Shown here: in pieces, positions 20,509 through 29,493 of the stretch
Numbering within the stretch: the first letter of the stretch is position 1
Layout: every line of letters begins with the position of its first letter
Assembly (NCBI GenBank): GCA_025358945.1
Contig: JANYHS010000295.1
Span: forward strand, 1-32,676
Direction: 5' to 3'
DNA: 32,676 nt
Source of the DNA: Acidobacteriota bacterium
GTDB lineage: Bacteria > Acidobacteriota > Vicinamibacteria > Vicinamibacterales > CAVVIG01
Notes under the pieces: model-generated
Seen by the model: the letters and a program-made list of their open reading frames with translations, nothing else
Databases searched by the model: none
Told to the model about the DNA's origin: nothing
Position numbers and translations under genes: made by a program

Positions 20509-21453
20509 ATGGGCTACACCCCGACTGACACAATCTGGTTCAACGGTAAACTGGTCCCCTGGGCCGACGCGACGGTGCATGTGCTGGCGCATGGCCTGCA
20601 GTACGGCACGGGCGTCTTCGAAGGCATGAAATCGTACCCGACCGCCGACGGTCCGGCGATCTTCCGGCTCGACGCGCACCTCGAGCGCTTCTACAAGTCC
20701 GCCGAGTTGTACGACATCGCCATTCCCTATTCGCAGCACACCATCGCCGAGGCGAGCCTCGAGGTCGTGCGGGCGAACAAGCTGGACGCCTCGTATCTGC
20801 GCCCCGTCGCGTTCTTCGACGCCGGCACACTCAGCGTGTGGACGAAAGAATGCCCGGTCACCGTGGCGATTGCCGCCGTACCGACTGGCAAGTACCTCGC
20901 CGATGCCGACAACGGCGTCCGGGTCACCGTGTCGCCCATCCGCAAGTTCGACAACAGCGCGATCCCGGCGTGGGCCAAAGCGTGCGGGCAGTACATCAAC
21001 TCGGCGCGCGCCGTGAACGAGGCGCAGAAGCGCGGGTTCGACGAAGCCCTGCTGCTGAACTCGCAGGGACTGGTGGCGGAAGGGTCCGGCGAGAACCTCT
21101 TCGTCGTGAAGGACGGCGCGCTCGTCACCAACGACAAGGACGCCAGCATCCTGATGGGCGTCACGCGCGCGTCGATTCTCGACATCGCGAAGGACCTCTG
21201 CATCCAGGCGACCGTCTCGCCCATCTCGGTCGAGGACGTCCTCGGCGCCGACGAGCTCTTCTTCACGGGAACCGCCGTCGAAGTGACCGCGATCCGCGAG
21301 GTCGACGGCCGCGTGATGAGCGGTGGTAAACCGGGACCCATCACCCGTCGTATTCAGGACACCTACAACCAGGCCGTCCGGGGACAGCTGCCGCAATACC
21401 GGCACTGGCTCTCGTTCGTCCGCCAACTCGTCGGCAAAGAGGTTCGCGCATGA
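20509..21453 (+). CDS. ilvE: Branched-chain amino acid aminotransferase
   Basis: A fold-type IV PLP aminotransferase for the last step of Val, Ile and Leu synthesis. The start at 20509 (MGYTPTDTIWFNGKLVPWAD) matches the family and follows GGAGAG; the open frame upstream overlaps the divergent gene and is rejected. Signatures: HVLAHGLQYGTGVFEGMKSY, catalytic K157 in IPAWAKACGQYINSA, GLVAEGSGENLFVV and the phosphate-binding FFTGTAVEVTAIREVDGR. It is 314 residues and overlaps the next gene by 4 nt (ATGA). A D-amino-acid or aminodeoxychorismate family member is less likely, given the strong IlvE motifs. Confidence 0.92.
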   Translation: MGYTPTDTIWFNGKLVPWADATVHVLAHGLQYGTGVFEGMKSYPTADGPAIFRLDAHLERFYKSAELYDIAIPYSQHTIAEASLEVVRANKLDASYLRPVAFFDAGTLSVWTKECPVTVAIAAVPTGKYLADADNGVRVTVSPIRKFDNSAIPAWAKACGQYINSARAVNEAQKRGFDEALLLNSQGLVAEGSGENLFVVKDGALVTNDKDASILMGVTRASILDIAKDLCIQATVSPISVEDVLGADELFFTGTAVEVTAIREVDGRVMSGGKPGPITRRIQDTYNQAVRGQLPQYRHWLSFVRQLVGKEVRA

Positions 21454-22232
21454 CGCGTCTGTCCACACTCGCGCTCGCCACTGTGCTGCTGACCGCCTCG
21501 ATCGCCGCGGCGCAGCAGCCGCCCGCTCCTGGCGGCGTCACCGGAACGGTCACCGGCGCGCGTGCCGGCGGCCCGCCGCCGATGTCCAACCTCCTGATCT
21601 TCCCGAAAGACACGCCGCGCGAAACGGTCATCACGACGATGCAGGCGTTCACCGCGGCGCTTGGCGTCCAGTGCAACTACTGCCACGTTCAGGAAGGACG
21701 CGGCGGCCGCAACGACATGGCGTCGGACGAGAAGCCGGCGAAGAAGGCGGCGCGCGGCATGATGACGCTGGCGCGCGAGATCAACGCCAAGCTGCCCGAG
21801 GCCGTGGGCAAAGGCGCGGCTGCGACCACGCGCGTCGGCTGCGCCACCTGCCATCGCGGCGTGCCGATTCCGAAACAGATCACCGACATCATGACCGAGG
21901 CCGGCAGCACGGGCGGCGCGGCAGCGGGCCTGGCGACATTCAAGCAACTGCGCGAGAAGTTCTACGGCGGCCAGAGCTACGACTTCAGCGAAGGCGCGCT
22001 GATCACGATGGCGCAACGCGCCAACACCGCCACCAAGTACGACGATGCGCTGGTGTACCTGCAGGCGAATCTCGAGTACTACCCGAAGTCGGCGCGCAGC
22101 TACTCGGCCGTCGCGCAGATGAAGACCGCGAAGGGCGACAAGCCCGGCGCGATTGCGGCAATGGAGAAAGCGGTAGAACTCGACCCGAACAACGCGCAAA
22201 TGAAAGCGCAGCTTGAAGCGCTCAAGAAGTAA
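21450..22232 (+). CDS. Exported diheme c-type cytochrome with TPR tail
   Basis: 260 residues. A signal peptide (1-21, ending IAAAQ) is followed by two heme sites, CNYCH (75-79) and CATCH (131-135). M64 before the first site fits the Met-x10-CxxCH layout of the photosynthetic-reaction-centre cytochrome family (PF02276), which non-photosynthetic Acidobacteriota also carry. A TPR-like pair follows (about 195-258: DDALVYLQANLEYYPKSARS, then GAIAAMEKAVELDPNNAQMK). It probably carries electrons in the periplasm, possibly docking an enzyme through the TPR part. It is translationally coupled to ilvE, although no metabolic link is obvious. Confidence 0.85.
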   Translation: MTRLSTLALATVLLTASIAAAQQPPAPGGVTGTVTGARAGGPPPMSNLLIFPKDTPRETVITTMQAFTAALGVQCNYCHVQEGRGGRNDMASDEKPAKKAARGMMTLAREINAKLPEAVGKGAAATTRVGCATCHRGVPIPKQITDIMTEAGSTGGAAAGLATFKQLREKFYGGQSYDFSEGALITMAQRANTATKYDDALVYLQANLEYYPKSARSYSAVAQMKTAKGDKPGAIAAMEKAVELDPNNAQMKAQLEALKK

Positions 22233-22273
22233 GACGTTAGAACTTGGAAGTTAGAAACTCAAAGGAGCAAAGT
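22233..22273 (+). repeat. TTAGAA-type low-complexity spacer with creatininase-gene ribosome-binding site
   Basis: After the cytochrome TAA comes GACGTTAGAACTTGGAAGTT then AGAAACTC, a degenerate tandem of GTTAGAA/GTTGGAA-like units, AT-rich against its surroundings. AAAGGAG (22260-22266) then serves the ATG at 22274. It resembles in style the AT-rich spacers of the ribosomal operon. Confidence 0.4.
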
Positions 22274-23206
22274 ATGCGTCGACTGCTATTCACGATTCCG
22301 GTGCTCGCGCTGTCCGCCGCGACCGCGTTCGCCCAAACCCCAGCCGCCAAAGCCGCCGCGAAACCTGCCTCCGCCAAGCAGGCCGCGACCGGCGCGAAGG
22401 CGCCGCTCGTCGAGTTCGACATGATGACGTGGCCCGAAGTGAAGGCCGCGCTCGCCGCGGGCAAGACCACCGCGTTGGTCTACACGGGCGGGACCGAGCA
22501 GCGCGGCCCCCAGAACGTCAATGGCGGCCACACGCTGATGGCGCGCGCGACGGCCAAGGCCATCGCGCTCAAACTCGGCAACGCGATCGTCATGCCGACG
22601 CTCGCCTACTCGCCCAACCGCGCGAGCGCGGATCTCCCCGGCACGATCGGCCTCAGCAACGAGGTCTTCGGCCAGATGCTGACCGAGATCTCCGAGCAGG
22701 CGATCATCACCGGTTTCAAGAACGTGATCATCATGGGTGACCACGGCGGCGGACAGCCGGGCGTGTTCACGGACGTCGCCAAGAAGCTCGACGAGAAGTA
22801 CGCCCCCAAGGGCGCGCACGTCTACTTCTGCGACGAGGTCTACGCGAAGGCGCAGGGTGATTTCGACAAGTGGCTGACCGCCAACGGTTATCCCACCAGC
22901 TCGCACGCCGGCATCCCCGACACGTCGACGATGATGTACCTGGGCGGGGACAAGGGTTGGGTCCGTAAGGAACTGATCGCGACGGCGGAAGGCGACCCCG
23001 CTCCGCCGCCCGGCTCGCGCGGCCAGGGACGCGGCACACCCGATCCGAACGCACCGCCGCGCAAGAACAACGGCATCACCGGCGACGCGCGCCGGTCGTC
23101 CGTGGCGCTCGGCAAGCAGGCGTTCGACATCAAGGTCAGTTACGCGGTGAAGCAGATCACCGGCTTCCTCGCGAGTCAGCCCAAGGCAACCGCCGCGCAG
23201 CAGTAG
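22274..23206 (+). CDS. Exported creatininase-family protein
   Basis: 310 residues from the ATG at 22274, chosen because AAAGGAG precedes it and the signal peptide MRRLLFTIPVLALSAATAFA follows directly. The creatininase fold is shown by YTGGTEQRGPQNVNGGH, ADLPGTIGLSNEVFGQMLTE, NVIIMGDHGGGQPG and SSHAGIPDTSTMMYLGG. Candidate metal ligands are E75, H86, H157, H211 and D216. The classical EQHG is EQRG here, with R77 in place of His. The family hydrolyses cyclic amides such as creatinine or deformylates Fapy compounds; the substrate of this exported group is not known to me. A Pro/Gly/Arg-rich insert lies near 245-265. Confidence 0.82.
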   Translation: MRRLLFTIPVLALSAATAFAQTPAAKAAAKPASAKQAATGAKAPLVEFDMMTWPEVKAALAAGKTTALVYTGGTEQRGPQNVNGGHTLMARATAKAIALKLGNAIVMPTLAYSPNRASADLPGTIGLSNEVFGQMLTEISEQAIITGFKNVIIMGDHGGGQPGVFTDVAKKLDEKYAPKGAHVYFCDEVYAKAQGDFDKWLTANGYPTSSHAGIPDTSTMMYLGGDKGWVRKELIATAEGDPAPPPGSRGQGRGTPDPNAPPRKNNGITGDARRSSVALGKQAFDIKVSYAVKQITGFLASQPKATAAQQ

Positions 23207-24462
23207 TGCATCAGCTGATTCTCGGCGGTACGCGCGGCCAACGACTCCAGGTCGCGCGTGCGGCCGGGATCACCGCGCCGATCCTCACGCTCGACGCACT
23301 GACGCTCCCCTTCACCGTCCCCGCTCTCCCCCAGCCGCATCCCCGGATCATCCGCATCGACGACATCGAGCACGCGTTCCCGGACGCGCAGACCGGCGGC
23401 ACACGCCTGGTCCTCACGCAGTCCACATACGTGATGCAGAAGTGGATCGACCTGCTCGATGGAGGCGATCACATGATCGTCACCGCCGATCGCGCAGCGC
23501 TCGAGCGATGCGCACCCGAGGTGCTTCAGCGGCGGGGGCCGTGGGGGAGCTTCGAGATCGTCGATGCCACGAAGCTCTCCACCACGGCGGACACGGAGGA
23601 GAGTTCCGTGGTGGAGAGCGTTCCTGGCGTGGAGGGCTTACTCGCGCGAGCATTTGCCGCGCGCGATCACACCGAGCGTCTTCACCTCTGTCACGAGGCG
23701 GTTTCTCTCGATCCTGACTCTGCGGTGGCGCACCTCGCCCTGGCAAGCGCATACCGGGAAACTCGCGACGGCGCGTCCGCGCGCGCGGCGCTCGATCGCG
23801 CGCTGGCGCTGGCGCCGGACTGGGAAGCCGCACATTACGAGAGCGCCAAGCTGTGGCTGGTCTACGACGACACGGAGCGGGCGCGCGATGCGTTCCAGCG
23901 CGCCGCCGACTGCATGCCGACCTTCTCCGCCGCCTTCAGCAATCTCGGCGCGACACTGGGCGAACTGGACGAACCCGCCGCCGCGCTGCGGGCGTTCCGC
24001 CAGGCGCTGGCGCACGACCCGCGCAGCTTCACCATCCTCAACAACATCGGCGTCGTCTGCCGCGAACTGGGACGCCCCGACGAATCCGAGGCGGCGCTTC
24101 GCCGCGTGATCGCCATCAACCCCGCGTTCGTGTTCGGCTACTACAACCTCGGGCACACGCTGTTCCTCGGTGGCAGGTTCGCGGACGCGCTGGCGGCGTA
24201 TGAAGAAGGCCAGCAGCGGGATCCCGAGAAGAACTGTCGCCAGGGATGCCGCCTGGCCGTGGTGCGATTCGCCAACGGCGACGCGGCAGGCGCTGAACGC
24301 GATCTGTGGCGGTGTGCGAACACGGCGCCGCCGGATGAGCGGGAGGATCTGCTGCTCGAGGCCTACGAGATCGTGCATGCCCTGCTCTCGCAGCATGCGG
24401 CGCTGTCGGCGCACCGGCCGTTTCTGGATCGCATCGGCGCCGAAATCGCCAAATCCGAGTAA
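23206..24462 (+). CDS. TPR protein with degenerate ATPase-like N-terminus
   Basis: 418 residues from a GTG that shares one base with the previous stop (TAGTG). Residues 165-345 hold about five TPRs (for example EAVSLDPDSAVAHLALASAY and LRRVIAINPAFVFGYYNLGH). Residues 1-120 look like a worn P-loop domain: GGTRGQRLQVARAAG sits where a Walker A would be but lacks the GK[S/T]; PRIIRIDDIEHAF resembles Walker B, and TRLVLTQSTYVMQKW resembles the sensor region. There is no signal peptide or membrane segment, so it is cytoplasmic. The function is unknown; an adaptor role is plausible. Confidence 0.8.
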   Translation: MHQLILGGTRGQRLQVARAAGITAPILTLDALTLPFTVPALPQPHPRIIRIDDIEHAFPDAQTGGTRLVLTQSTYVMQKWIDLLDGGDHMIVTADRAALERCAPEVLQRRGPWGSFEIVDATKLSTTADTEESSVVESVPGVEGLLARAFAARDHTERLHLCHEAVSLDPDSAVAHLALASAYRETRDGASARAALDRALALAPDWEAAHYESAKLWLVYDDTERARDAFQRAADCMPTFSAAFSNLGATLGELDEPAAALRAFRQALAHDPRSFTILNNIGVVCRELGRPDESEAALRRVIAINPAFVFGYYNLGHTLFLGGRFADALAAYEEGQQRDPEKNCRQGCRLAVVRFANGDAAGAERDLWRCANTAPPDEREDLLLEAYEIVHALLSQHAALSAHRPFLDRIGAEIAKSE

Positions 24463-26941: not shown

Positions 26942-26947
26942 TATATT
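26942..26947 (+). promoter_or_regulatory. Possible -10 box of the Tat zinc-ribbon gene
   Basis: TATATT 7 nt before the ATG at 26955. A start 6-7 nt downstream would fall on or next to the initiation codon, and there is no Shine-Dalgarno. The best -35-like sequence (TTTACC, 26915-26920) is 21 nt away, longer than usual, so this is tentative. Confidence 0.3.
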
Positions 26948-26954
26948 GAAACCA

Positions 26955-27314
26955 ATGCACGACGACATTCTGCGAAAGCTCGAGGCAAGACTCGACCGCC
27001 GAAGCTTTCTCCGAGGCTACGGTGTGGGTGTGGCTGCACTGTTGGGCGTCGCCGCCGCTTCTCCGCTCGTCGTCTTCGCGCAGTCGCCGCAGGACACGCA
27101 GGCCGACGACAAGAAGAAGACCGGCGAGAAGAAAGATCCGGCCACGGACGCGCCCAGGGCCGACGAGAAGCCGTACCGCGTGGAAGGCAAGGAAGGCAAG
27201 TTCTTCGACCGCGAAGGCGTCGAGGTCCGCGAGTGCCCCGAATGCGGGCACAACATGTATCAGCAGGGCCGCACCTGGACCTGCGAAAACTGCGGCTACA
27301 GCTACATCGAATAG
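26955..27314 (+). CDS. Small Tat-exported zinc-ribbon protein
   Basis: 119 residues from the ATG at 26955. The N-terminus has a twin-arginine signal (LDRRSFLRGYGVG, RR at 15-16) and a hydrophobic stretch ending VVFAQ. A charged Lys/Asp/Glu linker (45-90) follows, then a rubredoxin- or zinc-ribbon-like end, CPEC (94-97) and CENC (110-113) in a GYSYIE tail. Tat export suggests the metal is loaded before transport. I recognise no named family. TATATT sits only 7 nt before the ATG, so the mRNA may be nearly leaderless. Confidence 0.75.
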   Translation: MHDDILRKLEARLDRRSFLRGYGVGVAALLGVAAASPLVVFAQSPQDTQADDKKKTGEKKDPATDAPRADEKPYRVEGKEGKFFDREGVEVRECPECGHNMYQQGRTWTCENCGYSYIE

Positions 27315-28214: not shown

Positions 28215-28652
28215 CTACTTGTCGAAAGTCGAGAGGTCGAGCGAGGCCGTTTCGATCTGCAGCGCCTTCAGCTTGGTGCCGTCGGGTATCCGAAATGGGA
28301 AAGTGCAGGAATATTCGGGCACGCTGCCGACGTCCACAAACTGAGAAGGCGTGTTGTATTTCTTGTCCGCCCCGTCGGTGACGGTCGGGCGCTTCATCGG
28401 AGAGGCCTTGAACGTTGCCGATACCTTGAAGGCGACGGTAACCATCGCGAACGTCTCGCCGGGACGCGTGACCGCGCTCACCGTGTTGGTGCCTGGCGGG
28501 CAATCGCGCAGCGACGCGCTGGCCGCGTGCTCCACCTTGGTGACCGTGGCGTCGAGCCCCGGAAGAGGTTGAGCCTTGCTGGCGGCCTGACCCGCGGCCA
28601 CCACCGCCAGCAATCCTGAGATACCGAAACCCGCGAGCAGTCTTTTTGCCAT
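28215..28652 (-). CDS. Exported hypothetical protein
   Basis: 145 residues from the ATG at 28652. The signal peptide (MAKRLLAGFGISGLLAVVAA, cut near AASKA) leaves a mature part of about 120 residues. It looks beta-rich: alternating strands such as TFAMVTVAFKVSA and FPFRIPDGTKLKALQI, with two cysteines (DCPPG and YSCTF) that could form a disulfide. It loosely recalls DUF4352-type immunoglobulin-like domains, but I am not sure. The 51 nt upstream of PP2C on the same strand make co-transcription possible. Confidence 0.7.
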   Translation of the reverse strand: MAKRLLAGFGISGLLAVVAAGQAASKAQPLPGLDATVTKVEHAASASLRDCPPGTNTVSAVTRPGETFAMVTVAFKVSATFKASPMKRPTVTDGADKKYNTPSQFVDVGSVPEYSCTFPFRIPDGTKLKALQIETASLDLSTFDK

Positions 28653-28680: not shown

Positions 28681-29493
28681 TTAGAGTGGATTGTCCGGCC
28701 GCGCCAGCGTCCGCCACATGTGCGCGCTCGGGCTGTTGTCGTAGCCGAGGCCTTCTTTCGGCTGCTTGAAGTGGCGGCCGATGATGTCCTGGAACGGCTC
28801 GATCGAAACTTTGGCGTTCGGGTCGAACGCGTAGAGGTCGTTCACCGTCACCAGGCGCGGCTCCATGTACCACTTGTGGTTCTTGAGCATCTTGTAGGTG
28901 TCGGCGATGTACTGCGGCGGCTGATAGTCGTGCCCGAAGATCCGGTAATACTGATCCGGGTACTCGTAGCCCGCGTCATCGTCTGCGTAGAAACGCAGCG
29001 TCTGGTGATAGCGGATCGCGAACGCGCTCTTCTCCGGGATGTACGGCTCGAAGAGTTGCGCGCCCCACCAACCGTGATCCGGCTTGATGAGCGACAGCAC
29101 GCAGTCGTGCAGGAGGCACGCGAGGATGATCTCCTCGGACATGCCGGTCTTCATCGCGCGCGTCGCGCTCTGGAGCACGTGGTTCGCGGGCGCGAAGCGA
29201 AGGCGGAAGAAATCGTGGATCGTCGGCTTGTCCGGCATCTTCTCGAGGATCTTGACGTTCTTGCCGCGGCCGGTGAACACATCGCCCGCGCCGCGCCGGT
29301 AGGGGCGCGTCTCGATCTGGGCTTCGATTTCGGCGACCGTGGGGAACTTCTCGGGCTGCTGGGCGGCAACCATCTCGTCCAGCTTGTCTTCCATGTAATG
29401 TTCAAGCGCTTCGGCCTTGGCCTCATGGTCCATGAGGTTCACGGCCGCAACGCCGCCCAAGCTCGCGATGAAGACTCTCCGATCGACTTCCAT
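28681..29493 (-). CDS. Tat-exported HD-fold protein with MIOX/PhnZ-like ligands
   Basis: 270 residues from the ATG at 29493, preceded by AGGAGG; an ATG 39 nt upstream lacks this. The N-terminus (MEVDRRVFIASLGGVAAVNL) looks like a Tat signal. The HD-fold ligands are H105, H129-D130, H140, H163 and D219. Their order and spacing (24 residues from H105 to H129, 23 from H140 to H163, 56 to the last Asp) resemble the six-ligand diiron sites of PhnZ and myo-inositol oxygenase, and the local IRYH and NDLY echo MIOX IRFH and FDLY. An oxygenase is therefore possible rather than a phosphohydrolase. The substrate is unknown. Confidence 0.75.
   Translation of the reverse strand: MEVDRRVFIASLGGVAAVNLMDHEAKAEALEHYMEDKLDEMVAAQQPEKFPTVAEIEAQIETRPYRRGAGDVFTGRGKNVKILEKMPDKPTIHDFFRLRFAPANHVLQSATRAMKTGMSEEIILACLLHDCVLSLIKPDHGWWGAQLFEPYIPEKSAFAIRYHQTLRFYADDDAGYEYPDQYYRIFGHDYQPPQYIADTYKMLKNHKWYMEPRLVTVNDLYAFDPNAKVSIEPFQDIIGRHFKQPKEGLGYDNSPSAHMWRTLARPDNPL

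Follow-up and report, generated by a model that had tools for sequence, protein, structure and literature searches.

An acidobacterial HD-domain protein with a Tat-like N-terminus, and its family close to the PhnZ and TmpB diiron oxygenases

The window, by which we mean the whole 32,676-nucleotide stretch of acidobacterial DNA that was analysed, carries on its minus strand, at 28681-29493, a gene for a 270-aa HD-fold protein. Its ATG at 29493 is preceded by an AGGAGG Shine-Dalgarno sequence and all homologues that share its N-terminal segment align from the Met at this position, which together indicate that the open reading frame is real. A 145-aa gene without a Pfam match (28215-28652, minus strand) starts 28 bp downstream. 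The two genes and their features are:

28681..29493, minus strand: 270-aa HD-domain protein of a PhnZ/TmpB-related family, a probable diiron enzyme by sequence, profile and predicted fold
29431..29493, minus strand: residues 1-21, Tat-like RRxF segment MEVDRRVFIASLGGVAAVNLM, with no TIGR01409 or PF10518 match at E<=1
29365..29430, minus strand: residues 22-43, a conserved helix that bears the A-[DE]-A-L-E motif, a predicted folded part kept in homologues without RR
29179..29181, minus strand: predicted metal ligand H105, invariant in 101/101, aligned with PhnZ H34
29104..29109, minus strand: predicted metal ligands H129-D130, invariant in 101/101, aligned with PhnZ H58-D59
29074..29076, minus strand: predicted metal ligand H140, invariant, aligned with the TmpB/PhnZ HE..GA His
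29005..29007, minus strand: predicted metal ligand H163 (IRYHQ), invariant, aligned with the TmpB RYHVAAKRY His
28837..28839, minus strand: predicted metal ligand D219 (VNDLY), invariant, aligned with the PhnZ-family RRWDE Asp
28215..28652, minus strand: conserved protein of 145 aa whose N-terminus is Sec-like and which carries CPPG...C, a likely operon partner that adjoins the HD gene in 8 lineages

Elsewhere in the window, 26946-27314 (plus strand) encodes a small protein with a Tat signal and, at its C-terminus, a four-cysteine motif of the zinc-ribbon/rubredoxin-like kind (CPECGHNMYQQGRTWTCENCGY), and a reaction-centre-type multihaem cytochrome c domain, a creatininase-family ORF and repeat-containing ORFs lie in a row at 21450-24462 (plus strand).

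The original prediction placed six metal ligands at H105, H129, D130, H140, H163 and D219, in the order H...HD...H...H...D. The translation carries these residues at these positions, and both the residues and their order proved invariant in all 101 aligned homologues. The core contains 33 His, Asp or Glu positions, of which seven are invariant, and six of these seven are the proposed ligands (hypergeometric P ~6e-6). Their spacing is H105-24-H129/D130-10-H140-23-H163-56-D219, which we take to be the order and spacing of the PhnZ structure except for the HD-to-H segment, of ~21 residues there versus 10 here. Residues 80-131 align without gaps to PhnZ residues 9-60 (52 residues), setting H105, H129 and D130 on H34, H58 and D59; the TmpB alignment sets H140 on the His of HE..GA and H163 on that of RYHVAAKRY, and the PhnZ-family profile sets D219 on the Asp of RRWDE. 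Three residues beyond the Asp of the HD pair, the homologues have mostly Q, L, N, H or A. The complete and invariant ligand set indicates that the predicted dimetal site of the HD protein is intact.

Profile and fold searches pointed to the same relatives. TmpB (9e-7) and PhnZ (1e-5 to 3e-5) ranked first in the PDB profile search, where the sole other chain below 0.001 was 7ue2 (RPB_PLP3_R6), and TmpB and PhnZ alone fell below E 0.001 (probability 1.0) when two AlphaFold models (pLDDT 83.7 and 89.6) were used as Foldseek queries; MIOX followed at 0.12-0.69 and hydrolases at 0.37 or above. The TM-scores to PhnZ and TmpB were modest (~0.40 by query, 0.57 by target). Comparison of profiles by hhalign gave 97.4% and E 1e-11 for the PhnZ family, 53% and E ~1e-4 for MIOX, and 38% and E ~1e-4 for HD-GYP, and the closest family outside its own was a short HD family (L141-L150; 98.7%, E 4e-16). 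At the E<=1 threshold all 87 scanned members matched the models of TmpB and Phn-HD, the lowest E being 5e-9, and the window protein lies below the family cutoff of both, with 22 bits versus 214.6 for TIGR03276 and 21.5 versus 300 for NF049941. By sequence, profile and predicted fold, the diiron oxygenases PhnZ and TmpB lie nearest to the HD protein, with MIOX and ordinary HD phosphohydrolases further off; a best match to such hydrolases, which would have spoken against an oxygenase, was not found, as PhnZ and TmpB score better by both profile and fold. The proposed likeness to PhnZ and MIOX therefore holds for PhnZ and is weaker for MIOX. Similarly, the original picture of an exported HD protein with diiron-oxygenase-like ligands stands in its oxygenase-like half, PhnZ and TmpB being the top matches, whereas the export half is unproven.

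The HD protein was present in 31 of 100 relatives, mostly of the same order, and some of these genomes contained up to four matches. Across the phylum, 32 of 396 genomes were positive at E<=1e-6, some of them through weak matches to the shorter HD family, and 6 of 289 genomes were positive in one alphaproteobacterial class. A scan of species genomes returned 261 relatives, and those kept were mainly labelled Acidobacteriota or Proteobacteria, with the addition of Mycobacterium szulgai and M. angelicum. The copies of these two species (L063 3034-6807 and L064 632-1438, respectively) are ~75% identical to acidobacterial ones, lack the RR and have a charged N-terminus. This identity, together with a single positive genome among 250 of the Mycobacterium order, suggests horizontal acquisition by Mycobacterium. 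One homologue (L018 1495-2319, minus strand) is broken by an in-frame TAA that separates the N-terminal segment from the core, and is perhaps a pseudogene. No Pfam or NCBIfam model covers the family: the best matches were sub-threshold ones to HD, Phn-HD and TmpB, with generic HD models only in Pfam. Among open-licence papers, none was found that deals with this family or with an HD oxygenase that is exported. Judged from its sequences, it is a real, previously unmodelled and uncharacterised branch on the PhnZ/TmpB side of the HD superfamily.

The 145-aa partner adjoins the HD gene in 8 lineages, whose HD proteins are all of the RR type, and lies downstream on the same strand in seven of them; its Sec-like N-terminus indicates that it is probably secreted. 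No conserved catabolic neighbourhood was found around the HD gene, which usually stands alone, and Pfam enrichment among the neighbours gave nothing recurrent, the commonest family being MFS at 4 of 90. Since the neighbours are otherwise not conserved, the genomic context names no substrate. Two candidates suggested by individual loci were set aside. The M. szulgai gene follows a mannitol/arabinitol-type dehydrogenase and a xylulokinase, as might fit a polyol oxygenase; this idea was abandoned since the corresponding place in M. angelicum is taken by a glycine-rich PE_PGRS-like frame. A link to oxalate rested on a single lineage, which has a formyl-CoA transferase together with a ThDP enzyme resembling oxalyl-CoA decarboxylase/acetolactate synthase, but these genes are divergent and specific to that lineage. 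One family of the order (L045 3138-16339, L046, L047 and L050), whose members can have as many as four HD matches in a genome, has the HD gene flanked by PQQ-repeat proteins on one side and, on the other, by a divergent cluster of formyl-CoA transferase, ThDP enzyme and acyl-CoA synthetase.

Our best guess, in which we place slightly better than even confidence, is that this HD-domain family is sister to PhnZ/TmpB and comprises mixed-valent diiron oxygenases acting on a new substrate. By the mechanistic analogy available for HD oxygenases (PMC8177086), the six ligands would hold a dinuclear iron centre bridged by D130; in the mixed-valent Fe(II)/Fe(III) state, one iron would bind a hydroxylated substrate and the second iron O2, leading to cleavage of a C-C or C-X bond without an external reductant, as in PhnZ, TmpB and MIOX. 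An aminophosphonate such as those used by PhnZ and TmpB is probably not the substrate, and the invariant R99, R167 and R213, with an unusual set of invariant tyrosines, would be the likeliest substrate-pocket residues.

The same architecture could instead belong to a dinuclear HD phosphohydrolase with YqeK-like ligands that is nearest PhnZ merely by descent, which we consider unlikely. Two features of the superfamily lend it substance: the Fe-dependent Ap4A hydrolase YqeK carries two additional His in the stretch from HD to D, and the chemistry cannot be predicted from which metal is bound (PMC8177086). The ligand set alone is thus no proof of oxygenase chemistry, because YqeK has a similar one, and the restriction of Pfam matches to generic HD models would also be compatible with a hydrolase. 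PhnZ and TmpB nevertheless score far above every hydrolase in the fold and profile searches; furthermore, phosphohydrolases typically carry an Arg three residues before the first His (PMC8177086), whereas this position is P102 here and the nearest invariant Arg is R99, at -6. The YqeK family, wanted as a hydrolase control, had no member in 60 genomes of the phylum. A protein that retained its dimetal site for metal binding or for sensing, without catalysis, would be consistent with a gene that usually stands alone, outside any conserved metabolic operon, but seems very improbable given the 31 invariant core residues across the 101 homologues, which include Arg and Tyr beyond the metal ligands and are typical of a catalytic pocket.

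The location of the putative oxygenase depends on the reading of its N-terminus. The segment MEVDRRVFIASLGGVAAVNLM looks Tat-like by eye, with RRxF and 15 consecutive residues whose hydropathy averages 1.98, and the genome encodes two TatC genes above cutoff. A search with the N-terminus found this segment essentially only ahead of the HD domain of the window family. Among the 90 members with a native segment, RR is present in 67 and missing from 23, including M. szulgai, and at most one charged residue occurs at positions 8-21 in 66 of the 67 RR members versus 6 of the 23 others. RR changes at least eight times on the tree, and charge, when it moves, always does so in the same direction at the threshold of at most one charge, with too few supported pairs for significance. 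One reading of this co-switching is a repeated switch between exported and cytoplasmic forms; another is an exchange between hydrophobic and salt-bridged packing of a folded element.

Export of the window protein is, in our estimate, an even call. That its N-terminus only resembles a Tat signal, being a folded helical part of an enzyme that stays in the cytoplasm, is a substantial possibility that we would stop just short of calling probable. Signal peptides usually diverge faster than this segment: identity between RR members is 64.5% over residues 1-21, close to the 70% of the HD core, versus 33% in the linker, and the N-terminal block keeps its length of 43 residues in 62 of 68. Helices are predicted at 5-11, 15-19 and 23-45 with pLDDT ~90, position 22 is S, D or T in 86 of 101, like a helix N-cap, and the putative AxA site (A27-E-A29) falls inside a predicted helix. 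The 23 members without RR share the same framework, and the A-[DE]-A-L-E motif of helix 23-45 persists even in proteins that lack the RR segment entirely. Matches to Tat models are also few, with none for the window protein to TIGR01409 or PF10518 at E<=1, and 13 to PF10518 and 2 to TIGR01409 among 87 members at the same threshold. Against a look-alike stands the covariation of RR with low charge, never opposed over those switches, within the statistical limit given above. A divergent homologue (L139 1501-2298, minus strand), in which a classical-looking Tat signal with an AMA-EE AxA site (MNRRMFVTTALGAIAVTASGSRSAMA-EE) replaces the conserved N-terminal segment, likewise speaks for export, and the occurrence of a partner with a Sec-like N-terminus beside RR-type HD genes mildly favours an envelope location. 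Members with RR and low charge, the window protein included, may be Tat-exported or held at the membrane, and those without RR are probably cytoplasmic. The combined proposal of a periplasmic, Tat-exported, mixed-valent diiron HD oxygenase for a new substrate class, its signal having evolved on a pre-existing N-terminal helix and been repeatedly lost, with close relatives on both sides of the membrane, is speculative and, taken as a whole, rather improbable.

A 2020 review listed three characterised HD-domain oxygenases, namely MIOX, PhnZ and TmpB only (PMC8177086). A large family on the PhnZ side with all ligands intact and a different substrate gate is a direct candidate for a fourth chemistry and, if it were periplasmic, would test whether a folded protein can carry this mixed-valent cofactor along when it is exported.

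Among known systems, MIOX (2huo; PF05153) has the same ligand order and the local IRYH and NDLY likeness, but both its HDLGK lysine and its long HD-to-H insert are missing from the window protein; PF05153 was matched at E<=1 by one A2 member (E 0.29), and the window protein had no match. The HD-GYP pattern (H...HD...H...HH...D with the GYP triad) differs in that the family has a single H163, followed by Q, S or A, and the predicted NAD-metabolism HD hydrolase 3ccg reached only E 0.37 in Foldseek. The uncharacterised short HD family L141-L150 (~190 aa) has no comparable N-terminal extension and is nearer to Phn-HD; in profile comparisons it falls between Phn-HD and the window family.

The closest characterised enzyme is TmpB, the (R)-1-hydroxy-2-trimethylaminoethylphosphonate oxygenase (6npa; NF049941), which was the best PDB match by profile and fold, shares the first five ligands in the HMMER alignment and has the RYH and GA..LE motifs in common with the window family. 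In comparison with TmpB, this family adds an N-terminus of ~60-80 residues and a C-terminal GLG.D.SP..MWR block, and its HD-to-H spacing is shorter. The YxxE loop gates the active site in PhnZ and TmpB (PMC8177086) and is absent from all 101 homologues, of which 91 have F and 10 have Y at position 95 and none has E or D at position 98; TmpB Y30/E33 is thus replaced by F or Y and a non-acidic residue, and Y24 and E27 of PhnZ (4mlm, 4n71; TIGR03276 Phn-HD) are not conserved. The HDxGH/K of PhnZ and MIOX is mostly HDxxQ/L in this family. No PhnY/TmpA-like alpha-ketoglutarate hydroxylase (PhyH-type) was recognised, either among the neighbours in the window or in a scan of 10 of its ORFs; at other loci, the neighbour families covered were the commonest 25 of 116. 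The missing YxxE loop, the spacing of 10, the HDxxQ/L motif and the lack of such a hydroxylase near the window gene place the protein, as far as its sequence indicates, outside the characterised PhnZ/TmpB group; it would at most be an HD oxygenase that acts on another substrate, outside the phosphonate subgroup.
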